Shown: positions 4,953 through 20,732 of the stretch, in pieces
Layout: every line of letters starts with the position of its first letter
Numbering within the stretch: position 1 is the first letter of the stretch
Source: a virus
Reading direction: 5' to 3' (one strand)
Length of the DNA: 28,020 nucleotides
IMG/VR virus record: IMGVR_UViG_3300014913_000057
Coordinates: 1 to 28,020 of that record
Program-made: the position numbers and the translations under genes
Notes under the pieces: generated by a model
The model's input: the letters and a program-made list of their open reading frames with translations, nothing else
Database searches by the model: none
Told to the model about the DNA's origin: nothing

Positions 4953-5566
4953 AGCGATACTATATTACAAGAGTGTTGGGAGAAGGGACAATAGCCAATC
5001 CTTACTATGCTGAATTGAGAAGGTATATTGAAACCCACTGGCCTGACGAACCGCATTTTCTCAAACAAGCCATACATCCTAACGTAATTATGTGGTCAGT
5101 ATTAGCTTATGATTTGTCTGATGCTGCTCACACAGACGTAATGACCCTTACGGGGATATTTTCTTTTCCTTCCGGTTCTCTTGACACAACTGTTGGCAGT
5201 TTAACATTGGAAAGAAGACAGGCTATAAGAACAAAACTTGAAAATATAGGCTTTGAGTTTTCATGGGTAACTTCTGACACAACGATAAGAGAAGTCTTGA
5301 AGTATTTAATCAGGTCAATACAACTTGCATCGTGGGCAGAAGTACCTATAAGTGCTGCTAATTTTAATCTTAATACAACTGTGGCTGATATTCCGGCAGC
5401 AGCAAGGCAGAGAATTGCAGGGCATATGCAGGATTTAGGTATTGATACTTCATGGATAACCGGTTCTCATACAGTATCAGACGTTGTACATAAAATTCAA
5501 AGGCATTCAGATAATAGTATGCGATTGTTCGGGAATGCACAATGGCTTTTTCAGGACACTGACTAA
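4949..5566 (+). CDS. Unknown protein with two related C-terminal units
   Basis: This 205-aa protein begins with a strand-rich segment (Y-Y-I-T-R-V-L-G-E-G) often seen in phage structural proteins near terminase genes. Two related units of about 46 residues lie at about 78-123 and 140-186. Both read (L/F)-x-L-x-T-T-V-x-x-(L/I), then R-Q-x-I, an (N/D)-(I/L)-G-(F/I) turn, S-W-(V/I)-T, and a final helix. The product is thus an internal duplication of a small, mainly helical domain. Function is unknown. The GTG start overlaps the upstream stop, and the stop overlaps the next start (TAATG). Confidence 0.7.
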   Translation: MKRYYITRVLGEGTIANPYYAELRRYIETHWPDEPHFLKQAIHPNVIMWSVLAYDLSDAAHTDVMTLTGIFSFPSGSLDTTVGSLTLERRQAIRTKLENIGFEFSWVTSDTTIREVLKYLIRSIQLASWAEVPISAANFNLNTTVADIPAAARQRIAGHMQDLGIDTSWITGSHTVSDVVHKIQRHSDNSMRLFGNAQWLFQDTD

Positions 5567-6510
5567 TGGCATCATATTCAGACGATTTTAACAGAGCTAA
5601 CAACACTGATAATCTTGGTTCAGACTGGACGACCGATTTAGGCGAACTGAACATATTAAACAACCAGGCTGTCGGTGTCTCTGGTGCTAACGACAGTTGT
5701 ATCGGCAGATATACAGTTTCGTCAATGGATAGTGCCAACTATTATTCACAGGTAACTGTTGATTATTCGAGTGAGGCTGGTGGAGCTACTGCAAGGGCTA
5801 CGAGCAATCCTTATTATTATGCTCAACTGTGGGATAATGAATGGTCAACACACAAACTTATTAAACAGACAAGTGGTGGCTATACTGAGTTAGACTCATG
5901 GTCTGATGCCGGTGAATCAAACCCTGCCACAGTAAAGGTAGAATGTGATGGTTCGACTATTAATGGGTATATTGCGGGAACATTAAGAAACACAGCTACT
6001 GACACGGATTTAACTGCTGCTGGTGCGCCTGGGCTATATCTTGCGTGGGAAAACTGCGCTACTCTTGATAACTGGTCGGCGGCAGACCTTGCAGCAGGGT
6101 CTGCCTCAGCAAGTCCGAGTGCGTCACCATCAGCATCACCAAGTGCAAGTCCGAGTATCAGCCCGTCAGCAAGCCCATCGGCAAGCATTTCAGCTTCGCC
6201 AAGCGCAAGTCTTTCGGCAAGCCCAAGTTGTCCAGCAGGATGCGGCGGGTGTCCAGAATATATAGACGCTAATTTCTCAGGTTTATCAGGAACTTGTCAA
6301 GTTGATTGTGTCAGTTATAACACCACTTATCAACTTACAAGGCAGGGTTCAAACTGTGTGTGGCAATATGTAAACGGAAACTTAACAATAAGTATAACAT
6401 GCGAGGAGCCTTATTGGGTTTTAGAAATCAATAATAATGGTTCTACTTGTGGCAAGTGGACAGCGCCAATGGCGAGCTTTCCTAACTGCCCACCGACTAT
6501 ATCAATATGA
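5566..6510 (+). CDS. Jelly-roll-like virion protein with Ser/Pro linker and Cys-rich end
   Basis: Three parts are visible in 314 aa. Residues 1-175 form a beta-rich domain like concanavalin/LamG-type jelly rolls (D-D-F-N-R near the start, many aromatic strands). Residues 179-221 are a Ser-Pro-Ala repeat linker. Residues 222-314 hold nine cysteines (222, 226, 229, 244, 248, 264, 279, 295, 308) and probably bind metal or form disulfides. There is no signal peptide, so it is likely virion-associated. The linker is the same type as in the 907-aa protein downstream, suggesting shared processing or modification. It begins in a TAATG overlap and ends in an ATGA overlap. Confidence 0.65.
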   Translation: MASYSDDFNRANNTDNLGSDWTTDLGELNILNNQAVGVSGANDSCIGRYTVSSMDSANYYSQVTVDYSSEAGGATARATSNPYYYAQLWDNEWSTHKLIKQTSGGYTELDSWSDAGESNPATVKVECDGSTINGYIAGTLRNTATDTDLTAAGAPGLYLAWENCATLDNWSAADLAAGSASASPSASPSASPSASPSISPSASPSASISASPSASLSASPSCPAGCGGCPEYIDANFSGLSGTCQVDCVSYNTTYQLTRQGSNCVWQYVNGNLTISITCEEPYWVLEINNNGSTCGKWTAPMASFPNCPPTISI

Positions 6511-6743: not shown

Positions 6744-9467
6744 ATGGCAACATTAGGACATTGGACAGGCGGGACAATTGGAAGCAACGTAATCCCTGAG
6801 TCATGGACTGCGGCGCCATCGCTGTTCCCTACTGAAGCCAGGAACGATAATTCCACCTATGGATGGAATTCATCCACATCTCTCTTGACTTTGCCTTCAT
6901 CCGGTTTAGCAGATGGTTACTTATTTATCGGTGCCTTTGAATTTGAAGACTCAAGCAACGGCAGGTTTAATCCTCAAGGCAAGATTGTCCAGGCAAGCGG
7001 TACAGGCACTTTTGTGGGTGGTCCTACCGGCGGGTATAACAGGGATAATTCAGAAGACCGGTCTTATGTTCGATGCTGGGCATTTGTAGACAATCCTTCC
7101 GCAAGTGCAACGTTTCAATTCCAGTGGAAAGCAGATGTAGACGATGCCAATACAGCAGACGGCACAGTAAGAAGTTCTTTTCAGGTAATACCTTTTTATT
7201 ACTCAGATATTGGTTTATATTCAAGTACCGACCATACCCTTATGGGCGGAACGACACCCAATGTAGTTCCGGGATGGTCAGGCACAAACGGAACAAACAT
7301 AACCCTGTCAAGCAACGTTGTTACTGTAACCGGGGATAATAAGCGGTATCTTGTTTTAGGAAGCCAGTTTTTTGAAGGCCGTGGCGGCAGAACTCAAAGA
7401 TGGCACGGCTTAGACATTGACGGCACGCAAGAAACTGCTGCAATGGCTTACAGTTATTATCGTAATAGCTCTAATGATGAAAATGGAGAGCTTTTCACCT
7501 GGCTGCTTGAAACCGCCACAGCCAATATTACAATCGAACAAACCTGTTACCGTGGCGATGGTGTAGCGGCTGGTGACGGGGGTGCAGACTCAGACGGATC
7601 TGATCCGGGGGTTGGCGATCATGCCTTAGTTGTTATTGAGCTTAATGACAGCGCAGAAGTTTTCCTGACTAAAGATGGTACAGGCAATCAGAACTACGCC
7701 ACCACAGGCCCGATAGATATACCTGTTTCAAGAACCACTGATATTGAAATTAATGATTCGGCATCTTTTACCAGAGGTTCGGACAACGGCATGAACGCTG
7801 CTGTCGCAATGGATGCCTTGCTTGGTGCGAATGTTTCAGCAGCAAGCAACATTGTATCCAGTGGTTCCCGTTGGACAGCATATGCGCAGTTTACCATTGA
7901 CGGAACAGAAGAATCATTATCTTTTGCCGGTGATTATTTAAGAGGTAATCAAAGCTCGATTGATACTTTTGGCTGGTCTGCTAATCTGCTGAGTTTTCAT
8001 GCTCTTGCTCAGAACGAAGATGTTGGTGTGAGTGTTACTGAACTACCAGGTACAGAGGGTGGCGGTGGCAATATAAGAGCCAATGCGGATTGGGTCGGGT
8101 TCTGGGGGATTAATCTCGATACAATGGCCGGGGCTGGGTCATCAGCGTCAGCATCTCCCAGCGCATCAGTTTCAGCATCTCCCAGCGCATCACCATCTGT
8201 GAGTGTATCCAGTAGCCCATCGGTATCAATTTCGGCTTCTCCAAGCGCATCAATTTCGGCTTCTCCAAGCGCATCAATTTCGGCTTCTCCAAGCGCATCA
8301 ATTTCGGCTTCTCCGAGCGCATCAGTTTCGGCATCACCAAGCGCTACACCGAGTGCATCAATTTCGGCAAGCCCATCGGCAAGCCCGAGCGCTTCTATAT
8401 CTGCGTCACCATCATCTACACCGAGTGCAAGCGTTTCAGTTAGTCCGTCAGCTTCACCTTCGGCATATTCAGAGTGGTCATGGGACAGTGGCATTTGTGC
8501 GCAAGGTTCAGTTACAACTAATGTTTCAGATGTAGGGTCTTCACCTTCAGTTAGCCCATCTGTATCACCATCAGCAAGTATTTCGGCTTCTGCAAGCTCA
8601 AGTCCATCGTCAACGCCATCAGCAAGTATTTCAGCTTCACCGAGTTCGACTCCGAGTGTTTCTATAAGTGCTTCGCCTTCTGCGTCTCCGAGCGCAAGCA
8701 TATCTGCGAGTCCGAGTTCGTCAATAAGTGCAAGCCTATCAGCGTCTCCGAGTTCAACACCATCAGCAAGCATTTCTGCATCAGTCTCGGCAAGTCCAAG
8801 CTCGACTCCTTCTGCTTCTATAAGCACATCACCGAGTTCATCGCCGAGCGCAAGTATATCTGCGTCAATTTCGGCTTCACCGAGTTCAACACCGTCAGCT
8901 TCACCGAGCGCAACTCCTTCGGCAAGTCCGAGCGCAACTCCTTCGGCTTCTCCGAGCGCAACACCAAGTGCGAGTATTTCTGCAAGCGCTTCGGCAAGTC
9001 CGAGTGCGTCACCATCGGTAAGCATTTCTGCAAGCCCATCGGCATCAGTTTCGGCTTCTCCAAGCGCAACCCCGAGCGCTTCTGTGAGTGCGAGTCCGAG
9101 TTCGACACCTTCTGTATCTGTGTCAGCAAGCCCATCGGCAAGCCCAAGCGCTTCTGTATCTGCTTCACCATCATCTACACCGAGTGCATCTATTTCGGCT
9201 TCACCGAGCGCTACGCCAAGTGTATCGCCAAGTGCAAGTCCTTCGGTTAGCCCTTCGGTTTCAATTAGTGCATCGCCGAGTGCAACACCGAGTGCAAGTA
9301 TAAGCGCAAGTCCGAGTGCTTCAATATCCGCATCGCCAAGTGTATCTGAAAGTGCTTCACCATCGGCGAGTGTGAGCGCATCACCTTCATCGACAATAAC
9401 AGGAAAATCATGGTTTAAAAGGTTTGCTTGGATGCTGGTAGATTATGAGGCTTTAGGTTATGTATGA
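6744..9467 (+). CDS. Giant serine-rich repeat virion protein
   Basis: In 907 aa, residues 1-465 form a beta-rich globular region with many Trp/Gly/Thr, probably jelly-roll folds for binding. Residues 466-573 and 601-883 are Ser-Pro-Ala/Val/Ile/Thr repeats in which about every second residue is Ser. A 27-residue non-repeat island with one Cys and two Trp (574-600) parts them. The C-terminus (884-907) is aromatic and amphipathic. There is no signal peptide or sortase motif, so it is likely a virion spike or fibre with a long flexible stalk. Such repeats are typical O-glycosylation targets, and the next gene encodes glycosyltransferases with an 8-base overlap. It starts right after the preceding TAA. 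Confidence 0.7.
8139..9392 (+). repeat. Ser/Pro/Ala-coding repeat tract
   Basis: About 1.25 kb encodes S-P-S-A-S-x-S-A type units. Serine is encoded by AGC, AGT, TCA, TCT and TCG in mixed order, so the protein repeat is kept while the DNA repeat is largely scrambled, apart from one fresh tandem stretch. A gap with unique sequence lies at 8463-8543. The reverse strand stays open in one frame (8009-9025), but only because of the repeat composition. Confidence 0.85.
8226..8321 (+). repeat. Four near-identical 24-base tandem repeats
   Basis: Units at 8226-8249, 8250-8273, 8274-8297 and 8298-8321 each code for eight residues (Ser-Ile-Ser-Ala-Ser-Pro-Ser-Ala). The first three are identical and the fourth differs by one base. 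A diverged fifth copy follows (8322-8345). This looks like recent slippage or recombination that can change stalk length. Confidence 0.85.
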
Positions 9468-12264
9468 TTTAAGTGTGATCATAGCAGCAAGGAATGAGGA
9501 GTTCCTTCAAAATACAATAGACGATATTTTGTCTAATATTGAGGGGAATACCGAAATCATTGTTATTTTGGATGGTTACTGGCCTGTTCCTGGGGTAATA
9601 GATAACCCAAGGCTAACCATTATACATCATACAGAATCCATAGGCCAAAGAGCAGCTATAAATGAAGGCGTAAGATTAAGTAAAGCTCAATACATAATGA
9701 AATGTGACGCTCATTGTTCTTTTGACAAAGGCTTTGATGTAAAACTCATGGCTGATTGTAAGCCTGATTGGACTGTGATACCGAGAATGTACAACCTGCA
9801 TGCCTTTGATTGGGTTTGTGAGTGTGGAAAAAGACAATATCAAGGTCCCAAGCCTACCTGTAAGTGTGGTAAGGAGATGAAAAAAGAGATTGTCTGGAAG
9901 CCGAGATTAAACAGAAGAACAGACTTCGCTATGTTCGATAATGAACTCAAATTTCAATACTGGCGTGGCTATGAAAGCAGAAAAGAAGCTAAGGGCGATA
10001 TATCAGACGTAATGAGCTTTGTGGGCGCATGTTTCTTTATGGAACGAAAACGGTATTGGGAATTAGATGGGTTAGATGAAAAGCATGGTTCATGGGGTCA
10101 GATGGGTACAGAAATATCATGTAAGTCATGGCTGTCAGGTGGTAGGCAGGTGGTCAATAAAAAAACATGGTTTGCCCATATGTTCAGGACTCAGAAAGAT
10201 TTTTCGTTTCCTTATCCTATTAAGTTTTCAGATCAGGAAGCTGCGAGAAAATACTCTAAGAATGTGTGGCTTAATGATAGGTGGCCAAAAGCTAAGTATC
10301 CTTTAAAATGGATGATTGACAAGTTCGCACCTGTTCCAACATGGGATGCTAAAACGCCAACATTATCCGTAATCATCCCGGCACGCAACGAAAAGTATCT
10401 TCAAAAAACCATTGATGATATTATGGAGAATTTTGAAACAGACTTTGAAATTATTATCGGGTTAGATGATTACGATGCTAAATTAAAAGAAAATCCAAGA
10501 GTAATTGTATATCGAAGTGATAAAAGAGTTGGCATGAGGCCGATGATTAATATTTTAGCAAAGAAAGCGAGAGGCAGATATTTATTAAAAACGGATGCTC
10601 ATTGCAGGTTTGATAAAGGCTACGACAGAAAACTGATTGATATAACAAAGCAGGGATGTACAGTTTTGGGTATAAGGTATGAGCTTGATGTTAAAAAGTG
10701 GGAACGCAAAGAAAGAACCAACTGTGATTTCAGATATTTGTCTCATCCTGACGCAGACCCACTCGGCGGTTTAAGAGGACTTGCCTGGCATGAATGGAAA
10801 AAGAAGACAAAGGGAATGAAGATAGCTGAGTCTATGAGTCTTTCCGGTTCAGGCTGGCTTATGGAAAAGAAACAATTTGATGTGTGGGGCGGGCTTGACG
10901 AAAATCACGGGACGTTCGGTCAGGAGGGTGCTGAAATAGCGTGTAAAACGTGGCTACAAGGCGGCAGGCTGCTTATAAACAGGGAAACATGGTATGCCCA
11001 CTGGAATAGAGGGAAAGCCCCATATGCGCTCTCTCGCAGGCAAAGAGATAAGTCTGTGGACTATTCCATAGATTTCTGGATGAACGACAGATGGCATTTT
11101 CAGAAATATTCTTTTAACTGGCTGATTGAACATTTCAAGCCTGTACCTGGTTGGCCGGAGCCATGCGGGAAAGGAATAAAAGCACCATCGCAAGGGACAT
11201 TGTTCAAGGGTGCTGTGTTCAAGATGGACGATCTTTGGAATAAACGGATTGAAATATGCGAACATCTTAAAAGGTGGCGGTTAGCTATCTTTTATAAAGC
11301 CTTTGGTGAAGTAATAGATAATCTTATTAAGGGGAAGAAATATACCGATACAGAAATAAGAGAATCAAGATATTATCAATATCTGGTTACTCATCTTGCC
11401 AAGAAATGTTTACCTGTTAATCAGGATGAATACATAAAAAAGTGGAATAAACACTTAATGCGTAAGTTTAAAAGTGCCATAAAACTATTTGAATCTATTA
11501 AGAAAAATGGCGCATATAGCCCACTTGAGATGTATCAGAAAGATGGATATTTATTTTTGTGGCGGGGATATAGGCGTTTCGTAATAATGAAAAAGCTGGG
11601 GTTTAAAAATGCTCCTGTTTGTATACATAAATCCATAGCATGTAAAGAACTCCCTGAAATGTTTAAATACAAAGAGACCAAGGCGAAATCTATCAGAACT
11701 TTGGCTAAAGAACAGTTTGCCAAATATGGCAAGAGGGCAACGGATAAGCATTGGGTACACCAATACACTAAAGTTTATGACAACTTGTTTAAAGACCTGA
11801 GAAATAAACGTATTAAACTGTTAGAGCTTGGAGTATTAAGAGGAGCGTCTTTAAGACTATGGCACAAAGCTTTTCCCAAAGGTCAGATATATGGATTAGA
11901 TAAGAATAAAACGATGTGGCAAGAAATGACCAAAGATTTAGACAGAGTCAAGGTCTTTGTTGGGATGCAGGAAGACAATGAATTTCTCAAAAAAGTAGCT
12001 AAGTATGGTCAATTTGACATCATTATAGATGATTGTGGACATAATCCTTCGCAACAACTTGATACTTTTTTTTGTTTATGGGGGACATTAAAACCACATG
12101 GATATTATATTATTGAAGATTGTTACAGAAGTTACCTAAAAAAGAATAAAGACGTTATTGTACCTGAACATCTCACGTCTTATGTTAAAACTATTTATAA
12201 TGATAATGGAGTGTTATCAGTACAATTTTATTACAATCTATGTGTAATTCAAAAGGGAATATAA
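9460..12264 (+). CDS. GT2-GT2-ParB-like-methyltransferase fusion enzyme
   Basis: Four parts are seen in 934 aa. Two family-2 glycosyltransferase domains (about 1-295 and 300-565) are related to each other. Each has S-V-I-I-(A/P)-A-R-N-E near its start and a D-A-H-C motif (83-86 and 379-382) in the DxD position. The first also carries a Cys4 zinc ribbon (C120, C122, C134, C136). Residues about 685-722 resemble a ParB/sulfiredoxin-like domain (D-G-Y-L-F-L, R-G-Y-R-R). Residues about 765-934 are a class I SAM methyltransferase (L-L-E-L-G-V-L-R-G at 787-795, G-L-D at 812-814, D-D-C-G-H at 857-861). It probably builds or caps a sugar chain, with the repeat protein encoded just upstream as a likely acceptor. 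No membrane segment is seen. Confidence 0.8.
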
Positions 12265-12559: not shown

Positions 12560-12814
12560 ATGGCTATACAAATTGTATGCAACAGATGCGGGAGGTTTAT
12601 TAAGAATATAACTTTCAAACAAATGCAGAACCTTGACGAAAAGAAAGACGGAGTTTGTAAGATTTGCAGTTCAGTGGAAGAAAAAAACCGTTCTCAAATA
12701 GAGAGATTCTTTAACAGACTTCAAACAAAGTTGAATGATGACAAAAGAAACGCACATGAAAACTATGTTAAGTTGTTAGAGCAACAGGTGGCAGATAGAT
12801 TAAAGGAGGAATAA
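12560..12814 (+). CDS. Zinc-ribbon and coiled-coil small protein
   Basis: The 84-aa protein has C7-x-x-C10 and C33-x-x-C36, a four-cysteine zinc-ribbon knuckle pair, followed by a charged helix (about 38-84) likely to form a coiled coil. The function is unknown. Such proteins often bind nucleic acid or act as adaptors. A strong GGAGG lies 4 bases before the ATG. The TAA overlaps the ATG of the cupin gene (TAATG). Confidence 0.65.
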   Translation: MAIQIVCNRCGRFIKNITFKQMQNLDEKKDGVCKICSSVEEKNRSQIERFFNRLQTKLNDDKRNAHENYVKLLEQQVADRLKEE

Positions 12815-13152
12815 TGGAACGAACGTATAAAACATGGGGTGAGAAATGGAATCTCTTTCAAAATGATTTATGCGAAGTAAGCATTTTGCACCTTAAGTCT
12901 AACCAAAGATGTAGTTGGCATACGCACCAAGCCAAGTTTAACCAATTCTTTGTTATCGGCGGTAAGATACGCATAAAAACCGAATGGGGAATTTCAAATA
13001 TTGCCAAAGGACAGATATTTACTACTAAGCCTGGTGAATGGCACGAGTTTCAAACAACAGACAGTCCGGCATTAATACAGGAAATTATGTATGTTCAATA
13101 TTCAGCAGAAGACATCCAGCGCAAGAAATTAGGCGGGCCTTTAAATGAATAA
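12814..13152 (+). CDS. Cupin-domain protein
   Basis: In 112 aa the cupin core is visible: W-H36-T-H38, then a G-G turn at 49-50, K-G-Q at 65-67, and K-P-G-E-W-H77. The usual metal-binding Glu of cupin motif 1 is replaced by N43-Q44, so metal binding may be altered. Small cupins of this type include sugar-nucleotide isomerases/epimerases and mannose-6-phosphate isomerase-like proteins. Its place beside the glycosyltransferase fusion makes a sugar role attractive but unproven. The gene overlaps the portal gene by 8 bases. Confidence 0.75.
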   Translation: MERTYKTWGEKWNLFQNDLCEVSILHLKSNQRCSWHTHQAKFNQFFVIGGKIRIKTEWGISNIAKGQIFTTKPGEWHEFQTTDSPALIQEIMYVQYSAEDIQRKKLGGPLNE

Positions 13153-17471: not shown

Positions 17472-18713
17472 ATGGCAGAGAAACCAAAAGAATTAAACAG
17501 AAAAGATTACGAGCTTATGCTCAAGGAGCATCCTGAGTTCAAGCATGTAATTTCTAAAAAGAACTGGGAATTTATTGCTCATTCAGACAAGGGCACTGTG
17601 AATTATCTGTGGGATTTATGGGCTGATAACATACGTAAAAACGTAGGCCGGAAGTTATGGAGAAAACACGGCGGATTGGCCTCAGATTGCACAGGATTGG
17701 GTTTTAACAAGGCACTTATAGGTATAGGTGCAGGACAATGTTTTAACAAGAATAAAGACGTTTTATGGCGTCTGGCTCAGTGGGACGGTATTAAGTCATG
17801 GCAGGACAGAAACTTTATATTTATATCAGCCAACCATCAATTCAAACCGTTGTTAAGCATGGGTATTATACCTGATTTTGTGGTTGTGGCTGATGCAAGC
17901 GATGTTGTTTTAGACCAGCTTATAAAAGACATTCCTGATACAGCCAGAAATGTTACTCTTATTGCGGGACTGCATTGCAGCCCGAAGGTTTTAAAAAAGT
18001 GGGACAAACAAGGCAGGGATATAAGGTTTTATCTTACACACACAAAAGGGCTTGATGACGTATTCAGGGAAGAAACAGGACTTGACCCTGAACCGCATAT
18101 ATTATTGCAGGGTGGAAACGTGCTTAATACAGCTTGGTCTATCGGTCTCAAATATTTTAAATCGTCAGTTTTTATGGCTGTCGGCAACGACCTTTCTTTT
18201 CCTCTTAAAAACACGATGGAAGAACGCAGGAAAGGTTATTATGCTGATGGCGATTATTCTTCTAATGCTCCCGGGACAGGCACAGGCAGGGATGAAGCAA
18301 GGTCTGAAAAAATGTGGATGGGATTTGACCTTGAAAAGAGGCTCATATACACAACCGGCTTGCAGAACAGATATGATGTTACGATTAAACCTGTCGGTAC
18401 AACTCAAACATTATGGGTGTATAAAACATGGCTTGAAGCTAACGTAATTGGTATGGAGAGGAAATCAAAGGCTGCTTATCATTATTACAACTGTACAGAG
18501 GGCGGCATTGCAGGTGTAATGTGTAAAGACGATTCTGACAAAGGACTGGCAAAAGAAGACAACTGGTTTTTAATGGACGAAGTATGTAAACGCTGGAAAA
18601 CCAGAACGCTTGAAGATGCTGCTGATGAATTTTTAAAAGCAAAGGATGGTATGCGATGGGGAACACTCCAATCAGATGCCCGGTCTGTAACGGATTCGGT
18701 TCAACTAAATTAG
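17472..18713 (+). CDS. DUF115/MptE-like protein, possible glycosyltransferase relative
   Basis: The 413-aa protein has a Rossmann-like core: I-G-I-G-A-G at 83-88, the strand P-D-F-V-V-V-A-D at 134-141, G-G-N-V-L-N-T-A at 214-221 and V-G-N-D-L-S-F at 237-243. This matches the DUF115 (6-hydroxymethylpterin pyrophosphokinase MptE-like) family. Family members include motility-associated factors linked to flagellin glycosylation with nonulosonic acids. A sugar transfer role is therefore likely but unproven. The ATG has no Shine-Dalgarno and sits just after a strong hairpin. It leads a block of modification genes between capsid and tail genes. Confidence 0.7.
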   Translation: MAEKPKELNRKDYELMLKEHPEFKHVISKKNWEFIAHSDKGTVNYLWDLWADNIRKNVGRKLWRKHGGLASDCTGLGFNKALIGIGAGQCFNKNKDVLWRLAQWDGIKSWQDRNFIFISANHQFKPLLSMGIIPDFVVVADASDVVLDQLIKDIPDTARNVTLIAGLHCSPKVLKKWDKQGRDIRFYLTHTKGLDDVFREETGLDPEPHILLQGGNVLNTAWSIGLKYFKSSVFMAVGNDLSFPLKNTMEERRKGYYADGDYSSNAPGTGTGRDEARSEKMWMGFDLEKRLIYTTGLQNRYDVTIKPVGTTQTLWVYKTWLEANVIGMERKSKAAYHYYNCTEGGIAGVMCKDDSDKGLAKEDNWFLMDEVCKRWKTRTLEDAADEFLKAKDGMRWGTLQSDARSVTDSVQLN

Positions 18714-19064: not shown

Positions 19065-19078
19065 CGAGGGGTTTGGCC

Positions 19079-19837
19079 TTGAAATGTATTATATGTGATA
19101 ATACAAAGTTCGAGCAGATACATATTTATACAATACCGGATGAGTATGAAAAATTTATGGGTATTAAAGATGTTGACCGTGACTGGATAAGGTGTATGCA
19201 ATGCGGGCATTATCAACAAGACAGGAATTATCCATTGGCGAAACTGGAAAAGATATATGAAGATGGTTACAGAAGTTTCGAGTTCAGGCATGAAACCATA
19301 CAACAGGCTTATAATAAGGTTGTTGAAATACCGGACAACGAGAATAGCCAGAGATGTGAATGGTTCATTGACAATATCGGCAAAGTTAAAACGATTCTGG
19401 ACTTTGGGTCAGGTCTGGGTTTATTTCCTGAGTTTCTTGCTAATCGCAGGTATGATATTACTTGTGTCGAGATTAATAAACACAGTAAAGAGTTTATTGA
19501 ATATTCCTTAAAGATACCTTGTTATAAGTCTATGCCTGCCAGCAGGTTTGATGTAATAACTTTAGTGCATGTTCTGGAACATATTGAAAATCCTGTTGAG
19601 TTTTTAACGTTACTTAACACAGATAAAATTTTTGTAGAAGTGCCTGACGCAGTTGAGTTTGAACTTTTAGACAAGAACCATGATGATTTCAACAGTTGTC
19701 ATTGTCACTTCTTTACAAGAAACAGCCTTGAAGCATTATTGAAAATGAGCGGCTATGAAGTTACAGCCGAACACGATATACATTATAAACAGCGTAACCT
19801 ATCAAGGATATTGATGATTGCAGTTAAACAACAATGA
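19079..19837 (+). CDS. Zinc-ribbon class I SAM methyltransferase
   Basis: The 252-aa protein begins with a Cys4 zinc site (C3, C6, C39, C42), then a Rossmann-like methyltransferase: motif I D-F-G-S-G-L-G at 108-114, acidic E131 after the second strand, and L-V-H-V-L-E-H-I-E-N-P at 162-172. This domain order is like sugar C-methyltransferases and related small-molecule methyltransferases. A TTG start at 19079 is chosen because CGAGGGG lies 7 bases upstream. The TTG at 19073 is too close to that site. The end overlaps the radical SAM gene by 20 bases, so the two are coupled. Confidence 0.75.
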   Translation: MKCIICDNTKFEQIHIYTIPDEYEKFMGIKDVDRDWIRCMQCGHYQQDRNYPLAKLEKIYEDGYRSFEFRHETIQQAYNKVVEIPDNENSQRCEWFIDNIGKVKTILDFGSGLGLFPEFLANRRYDITCVEINKHSKEFIEYSLKIPCYKSMPASRFDVITLVHVLEHIENPVEFLTLLNTDKIFVEVPDAVEFELLDKNHDDFNSCHCHFFTRNSLEALLKMSGYEVTAEHDIHYKQRNLSRILMIAVKQQ

Positions 19838-20732
19838 AATAAGAATTGAGACGACCAATTTTTGTAACGGGAATTGTATATTCTGCCCCAGGGATGAAAT
19901 GACAAGACCTAAAGTTACAATGAAATATCCTCATTTCAGGCAACTTGTGGAACAAGCATATGCGCTTGGAGTGGATACGGTTTCCCCTTTTGGCTTTGGT
20001 GAACCGTTAATGGACTCGAAGATTGCAGACAAAATAGAACTGTGTAATATCATGGGATTTAATACATTTCTGACAACCAATGCAACCCGGCTTACAGTTG
20101 AAAAATCCTTTGATTTACTCAAGGCTGGATTATCACATATCAGGTTTTCAGTTCATGGCGTAGGTTTTAATTATGAAAGAGTGCAAAAGGGTTTCACGTG
20201 GAACGAAACAATAACCAATATAAATAACTTCTTAAAAGTCAACCATGTGAAATATGAACATAAGTGCAAAGTAAGCGTGTCTATAATACCGATGCACAAT
20301 GAAGATATAAAAGACTTAAAAATGTTCTGGGAACGACCGGAAATAGATTATCTTGAAATATGGAAACCTCATAACTGGTCAACGGTTAAAAATTATCGGA
20401 AACCAACCAGAAAGAAATTGAAAACATGCGGCAGGTCTACACATGGCCCCATACAGATTCAGTCAGACGGTAAGGTTATTCCATGTTGTTTTATGACAAA
20501 CGCTGAGGTTGTTTTAGGCGACACTTATACAGACGCACTTGAGAACATTATCAAAGGCAAGAAATACAATGCTTTTCGTGAAGCTCACAGAACGGGTAAT
20601 TTAAAAGGCTTGCCCTGTGAAACATGCGATCAGCTTTATATAGGCGAAAACCCCTTGCTTTATTCCAGCAGGGATAAAGACAGGAACATTCATGTAACAA
20701 GTTCAACCAAATTTAAACTAAAGGAGAATTGA
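19818..20732 (+). CDS. Radical SAM/SPASM enzyme
   Basis: The 304-aa protein has the radical SAM cluster motif C16-x3-C20-x2-C23, followed by G-F-G-E-P-L at 59-64, a GGE-like SAM-binding motif. A C-terminal SPASM-type region has cysteines at 204, 223, 224, 267 and 270 with D-G-K-V-I-P-C-C. Such enzymes use an iron-sulfur cluster and SAM to modify peptides, sugars or small molecules. The start is a TTG at 19818 with AAGGA 9 bases upstream, overlapping the methyltransferase gene. Partners point to a joint modification reaction, with the substrate unknown. Confidence 0.85.
   Translation: MQLNNNEIRIETTNFCNGNCIFCPRDEMTRPKVTMKYPHFRQLVEQAYALGVDTVSPFGFGEPLMDSKIADKIELCNIMGFNTFLTTNATRLTVEKSFDLLKAGLSHIRFSVHGVGFNYERVQKGFTWNETITNINNFLKVNHVKYEHKCKVSVSIIPMHNEDIKDLKMFWERPEIDYLEIWKPHNWSTVKNYRKPTRKKLKTCGRSTHGPIQIQSDGKVIPCCFMTNAEVVLGDTYTDALENIIKGKKYNAFREAHRTGNLKGLPCETCDQLYIGENPLLYSSRDKDRNIHVTSSTKFKLKEN

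Follow-up and report, generated by a model that had tools for sequence, protein, structure and literature searches.

We find that a 907-aa protein with a long alternating-serine repeat and a 934-aa fused glycosyltransferase-methyltransferase, encoded by overlapping genes in an uncultivated phage, belong to a cassette that appears to occur in unrelated phages on different virion proteins. We consider it likely, with a probability of roughly 75%, that this cassette carries out phage-borne O-glycosylation of virion stalks. The stretch of DNA analyzed here, referred to as the window, is the complete IMG/VR record IMGVR_UViG_3300014913_000057 (28,020 bases). Its terminase is a distant match to the terminases of Arthrobacter phages, and since portal, major head, and tail collar fibre genes are present alongside the terminase gene, the source is a tailed phage. 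The repeat and enzyme ORFs are located between the terminase and portal genes. Other genes in the window include a small cupin gene ahead of the portal gene (12814-13152), methyltransferase and radical SAM/SPASM genes placed before the tail genes (19073-20732), and, directly after the major head protein gene, an MptE-like/DUF115 protein (17472-18713, 4e-15). The latter has a weak match to the flagellin modification protein PseD and is possibly a second protein-glycosylation enzyme.

The 907-aa protein (6744-9467, forward strand, as are all features of it, of the enzyme, and of the upstream protein described below) consists of a head (6744-8141), an alternating-serine stalk (8142-9422), and a short C-terminal tail. 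A sequence-only reading of this DNA had described about 400 residues of Ser/Pro/Ala repeat in a virion-type protein, and the repeat indeed covers 427 aa (residues 467-893), with serine at almost every second position and a composition of 47% Ser, 18% Ala, and 14% Pro. Based on its composition and codon mix, this region is the proposed O-glycosylation acceptor. Runs of at least 12 Ser-x units were absent from all 138 random viral loci searched (1.17 Mb), so the repeat is not a product of chance. A recent tandem repeat of a 24-bp unit at 8225-8344 is 94% identical as DNA, which is what would be expected if the repeat were a functionless product of replication slippage. Most of the 427-aa region, however, is not repetitive at the DNA level, and the Ser-x pattern recurs in unrelated phages with other second residues. 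The serine runs of the window mix both codon boxes (76 TCN and 56 AGY), and each box accounts for more than 10% of serine codons in 85 of 89 repeat-bearing loci. Because serine is retained through both boxes, selection on the protein is needed, and we reject slippage as having virtually no chance of being correct.

Upstream lies a 314-aa protein (5566-6510) that is a possible second acceptor. No Pfam family was found above the cut-off for this protein, in which a 44-aa SPSA linker (6100-6231) connects two globular parts, in agreement with the Ser/Pro linker that had been noticed earlier as resembling the repeat.

The enzyme gene (9460-12264) begins within the last 8 bases of the repeat ORF (9460-9467), and neither protein has an N-terminal segment resembling a signal peptide when judged by eye; both points had been made from the sequence-only reading and hold. 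The enzyme comprises two GT27-like domains, a middle region, and a methyltransferase. Its description as a two-domain glycosyltransferase plus methyltransferase was accurate, while the generic GT2 label was not the best one, the domains being rather GT27-like. Pfam recognizes Glycos_transf_2 twice (1.4e-26) and, at approximately aa 788-888, a domain of the Methyltransf_24 type (4e-5). A phmmer search against solved structures placed the methyltransferase part (domain at 11752-12261, match over aa 761-893) with 3ssm (1.2e-21) and 8ia9 (2.6e-10), which are macrolide-sugar O-methyltransferases, and the middle region of about 170 residues (aa 591-764) could not be assigned to a family. In alignment and tree, the first GT27-like domain (9460-10332; DxH at 9706-9714, C-terminal His at 10177-10179) belongs to clade A, whose members have a Cys-rich insert and which is recovered with support of 100/100 for 21 rows. 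Most relatives have two GT27-like ORFs at each locus, and the partner of the clade-A domain mostly lacks the insert. In the window, the clade-A domain, its partner, and the methyltransferase are joined in one fusion, and a fusion of the same kind is found in L038.

Polypeptide GalNAc-transferases of family GT27 initiate mucin-type O-glycosylation in eukaryotes, and several lines of evidence connect the phage domains to them. In the same phmmer search, aa 259-543 matched GALNT12 (4.6e-9). A profile built from six phage domains found polypeptide GalNAc-transferases as all of its best 15 solved structures (top 2e-13), followed by a chondroitin synthase (8e-9). An AF2 model of the second domain (10354-11232; DxH at 10594-10602, C-terminal His at 10999-11001), made from 72 sequences, reached a mean pLDDT of 92, and the 50 PDB matches listed for it by Foldseek were all GalNAc-transferases (best E 8e-17, TMq at most 0.78). 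D81 and H83 of the DxH motif and the C-terminal H216 are invariant in 72 diverse domains, and the position of the xED Asp (192) is never Asp in them. DxH takes the place of DxD only in GT27 and GT60, 2 families that share the Ser/Thr O-glycosylation of polypeptides, the C-terminal His binds the metal in GT27, and the xED Asp is mostly kept in inverting families (PMC7185993). With this combination of DxH, C-terminal His, and missing xED Asp, the phage domains look like retaining, metal-dependent polypeptide transferases. We use the name GT27-like because the lectin domain of eukaryotic GT27 enzymes is lacking: no Ricin_B_lectin match was found in either the 934-aa protein or the C-terminal part of one relative (L002:8931-9713).

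The association between these enzymes and serine repeats was assessed in both directions. A glycosyltransferase-only query built from three repeat-bearing phages gave 419 relatives in one scan of viral contigs, the best 80 of which were examined, and control loci were picked by random DNA words. Runs of at least 12 Ser-x units were present in 59 of these 80 loci versus 0 of 138 controls. After removal of near-copies, the alternating-serine repeat was found in 53 of 71 loci versus 0 of 138 (Fisher 2e-34), and in 0 of 53 when controls were restricted to those of at least 10 kb. Of the 18 loci in which the DNA examined shows no serine repeat, several are short fragments, and Ser/Thr-alternating stretches occur in four more loci. 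For the reverse direction, a DNA pattern for SPSA was scanned, and only loci with an in-frame repeat were used since 98 of 120 lacked one. Strong GT27-like matches (best E below 1e-100) were found in 7 of the 16 in-frame records, and most of the other 9 are fragments; among repeat records longer than 30 kb, 5 of 6 carry GT27-like genes. Random records gave 0 of 50, with two weak partial matches. The co-occurrence across phage genomes that the sequence-only reading had proposed as a check is therefore seen both ways.

The two genes are also immediate neighbors more frequently than their shared presence would require, in 30 of 50 loci compared with 17.7 expected by shuffling (maximum of 29 in 5000 rounds). 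The pair always shares a strand but may come in either order; the median gap is 86 nt, and stop and start frequently overlap. These results bear on a reading in which the repeat is a mere flexible spacer and the enzyme glycosylates another virion protein. Three loci (L024, L033, and L055) are compatible with it, since their glycosyltransferases are found beside moderately Ser/Thr-rich structural proteins without an alternating repeat. Yet the association of repeat and enzyme holds in both directions, and it is serine itself that is conserved, not merely small residues. The head domain of the 907-aa protein provides a further comparison. It has two relatives of approximately 60% identity, L380 and L381, which lack the serine stalk and have no GT27-like gene in records of 26 and 16 kb, and L380 bears RPPTFITG-type repeats in place of the stalk. 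That head relatives without the stalk also lack the enzyme is suggestive, not conclusive, in two cases. Taken with the serine conservation and two-way association, it leaves the spacer reading quite improbable. In L380 (8001-12287), an extended SRPPTFI(S/T)G-type repeat array is joined to the window-type head domain. An AF2 model of the head domain, made from only three sequences, had a pLDDT of 40, too low to be of use.

The heads of repeat ORFs elsewhere match tail, distal tail, neck passage structure, head, and minor tail proteins, with single heads matching lectin or carbohydrate-binding domains. Beyond the cassettes themselves, the same loci encode major head proteins of several different families, along with terminases and tail proteins, and it is from this variety of head families and of virion heads that we infer the presence of the cassette in unrelated phages. 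Cassettes additionally hold Methyltransf_24 enzymes, TOD1/MUCI70-like, Glyco_tranf_2_4, and GT4-like glycosyltransferases, and sugar-nucleotide enzymes. Together with a sulfotransferase, these extra enzymes are as expected for a longer, decorated glycan, while no sugar-nucleotide gene was recognized within the 28-kb window. The sulfotransferase domain gene (L002:6739-7407, 4.7e-18) lies within a phage cassette and suggests sulfated virion glycans. A recurrent family of approximately 220 aa with the motifs YYTANxx and ISVSQKPxDFGxNICVG (L014:7097-7813, L024:5400-7334, and L002:8931-9713) is also found fused to the C-terminus of clade-A glycosyltransferases; it has no Pfam match and is probably a new glycosyltransferase-like family.

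The enzymes could instead be cargo carried in the structural region, acting on polysaccharide, lipid, or protein of the host surface, for example in the exclusion of other phages. The GT4 and GT2 enzymes, epimerases, and UDP-glucose dehydrogenase of the cassettes are also found in surface polysaccharide clusters, and one copy of the module lies on a WWE3 chromosome (L360). Against this, the glycosyltransferase genes pair and overlap with Ser-repeat ORFs, the closest enzymes target Ser/Thr of polypeptides, and no membrane-anchored or undecaprenyl-type transferase was seen in the window. We regard this alternative as unlikely, though less so than the spacer reading.

Full-length relatives in cellular genomes are mostly in Patescibacteria. 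L394 and L361 are phage regions, while L360/L393 belongs to a WWE3 chromosome that carries, in addition to housekeeping genes identified by eye (a TatC-like gene among them), the glycosyltransferase pair and a 2323-aa Ser-repeat protein. This protein (L360:12096-19064), which adjoins the GT27-like pair in a cellular version of the arrangement, may be a glycoprotein on the surface of an ultra-small bacterium. In the phylum to which the WWE3 genome belongs, 4 of 287 sampled genomes carry relatives, counting the seed genome, versus 0 of 298 for the phyla represented by a Bacteroidetes and a Devosia genome. In three Patescibacterial genomes (L358:2360-4334, L360:2490-4483, and L396:3039-4798), the same two genes, as judged by eye, precede the module; one encodes a REP/Y1-transposase-like protein, the other a small membrane protein, and they may mobilize the module. 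Exchange of the module between phages and hosts is likely. With the window protein or a glycosyltransferase consensus as query, the GT27-like domain was not found in 50,697 GenBank phage records, the sole exception being one weak partial match in an uncultured record. Its presence in Patescibacterial genomes, one clearly chromosomal, offers a host lead for such phages.

Glycosyltransferases that modify phage DNA are well known (reviewed in PMC12619734), and the window encodes radical SAM and cupin proteins, so one could suppose that the enzymes glycosylate hypermodified bases as a defense against restriction and that the neighboring repeat is incidental. Radical SAM relatives are present in loci L002 and L028 as well. 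Thymidylate synthase/hydroxymethylase (PF00303) exceeded the cut-off in only 1 of 41 glycosyltransferase records, the nearest structures are polypeptide transferases, and the association with serine repeats is strong. DNA hypermodification is disfavored by both the scarcity of PF00303 and the enzyme family, and we consider it very unlikely.

We therefore return to glycosylation of the virion stalk. The virion glycosylation module put forward by the sequence-only reading is supported by the two-way co-occurrence, the GT27-like enzyme, and the repeats on recognized virion proteins, and a sugar coat on particle parts is probable given the pairing of glycosyltransferase and repeat in dozens of unrelated uncultured viruses. 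The repeat would be the natural acceptor because the enzyme family is close to the eukaryotic initiators of Ser/Thr O-glycosylation of polypeptides. In the proposed mechanism, the GT27-like domains would transfer a sugar, probably HexNAc, from a nucleotide donor in the cytosol of the infected cell to serines set close together in the repeat of the 907-aa protein, and probably also to those of the SPSA linker in the 314-aa protein. One domain may initiate while the other extends or co-initiates, after which the fused methyltransferase would O-methylate the glycan. The decorated repeat would form a stiff, extended, mucin-like brush bearing the head domain on the particle, which may lengthen or shield a virion appendage.

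To our knowledge, virion glycosylation is known from few phages. The family described here, with 419 relatives, links uncultured phages to the enzymes that initiate animal mucins, and in most examined cases the predicted acceptor is encoded beside the GT27-like enzyme. It is possible, although we suggest it only tentatively, that phages and some Patescibacteria have a true prokaryotic mucin-type O-glycosylation, in which GT27 relatives build HexNAc-Ser brushes on tail, neck, and head proteins from a mobile cassette. If so, GT27-type polypeptide O-glycosylation would not be a eukaryotic specialty, and viruses or bacteria may serve as its reservoir. Whether phages carry mucin-like brushes and whether this chemistry is older than eukaryotes are now testable questions, and expression of the fused enzyme and of repeat peptides is straightforward.

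Among known systems, the phage enzymes share with GT27 GalNAc-transferases the GT-A fold, closest solved relatives in both sequence and fold, the DxH, the C-terminal His, and the missing xED Asp, and a Ser-rich, Pro-containing presumed acceptor adjoins the phage enzyme gene. They differ in lacking the ricin-type lectin domain that is usual in eukaryotic members and a Golgi anchor, in being paired and, in the window, fused to a methyltransferase, and in being phage-encoded, with donor and acceptor here putative.

In bacterial serine-rich repeat (SRR) glycoproteins, GtfA/GtfB add GlcNAc to Ser/Thr of the repeats (PMC6973325). As in these proteins, a long alternating-serine repeat stands beside a non-repeat head (binding region in SRR proteins), the glycosylation enzymes are encoded adjacent to it, and modification is expected in the cytosol. 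In contrast, the phage enzymes are of an unrelated GT-A family and the repeat is on a virion-type protein. GtfA/GtfB (GT4/DUF1975) were absent among the Pfam or NCBIfam matches of the 934-aa enzyme, and no SecA2/SecY2, long signal peptide, or LPXTG was seen among the ORFs of the window, whose starts and ends were read directly. Since the SRR enzymes and export machinery are absent here, the earlier parallel to SRR adhesins stands as functional analogy and not as homology or membership.

Mycobacteriophage virion proteins carry glycans for which shielding has been proposed, the acceptors being the C-termini of capsid and tail-tube subunits (Freeman et al. 2023, as cited in PMC12619734). As in such phage modules, a phage-encoded glycosyltransferase adjoins virion protein genes in the window, and prophiFVLQ01-1 likewise has a glycosyltransferase-methyltransferase gene pair near terminase and portal. 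However, the match of the window protein to the mycobacteriophages was confined to its methyltransferase domain, and the reported acceptors are not long serine repeats. Our search of the open-access literature turned up no description of GT27 enzymes in phages or of glycosylated phage Ser repeats. Virion glycosylation itself is already known, and what is new here is the pair of GT27-like enzymes, the Ser repeat as putative acceptor, and how widely the cassette has spread.
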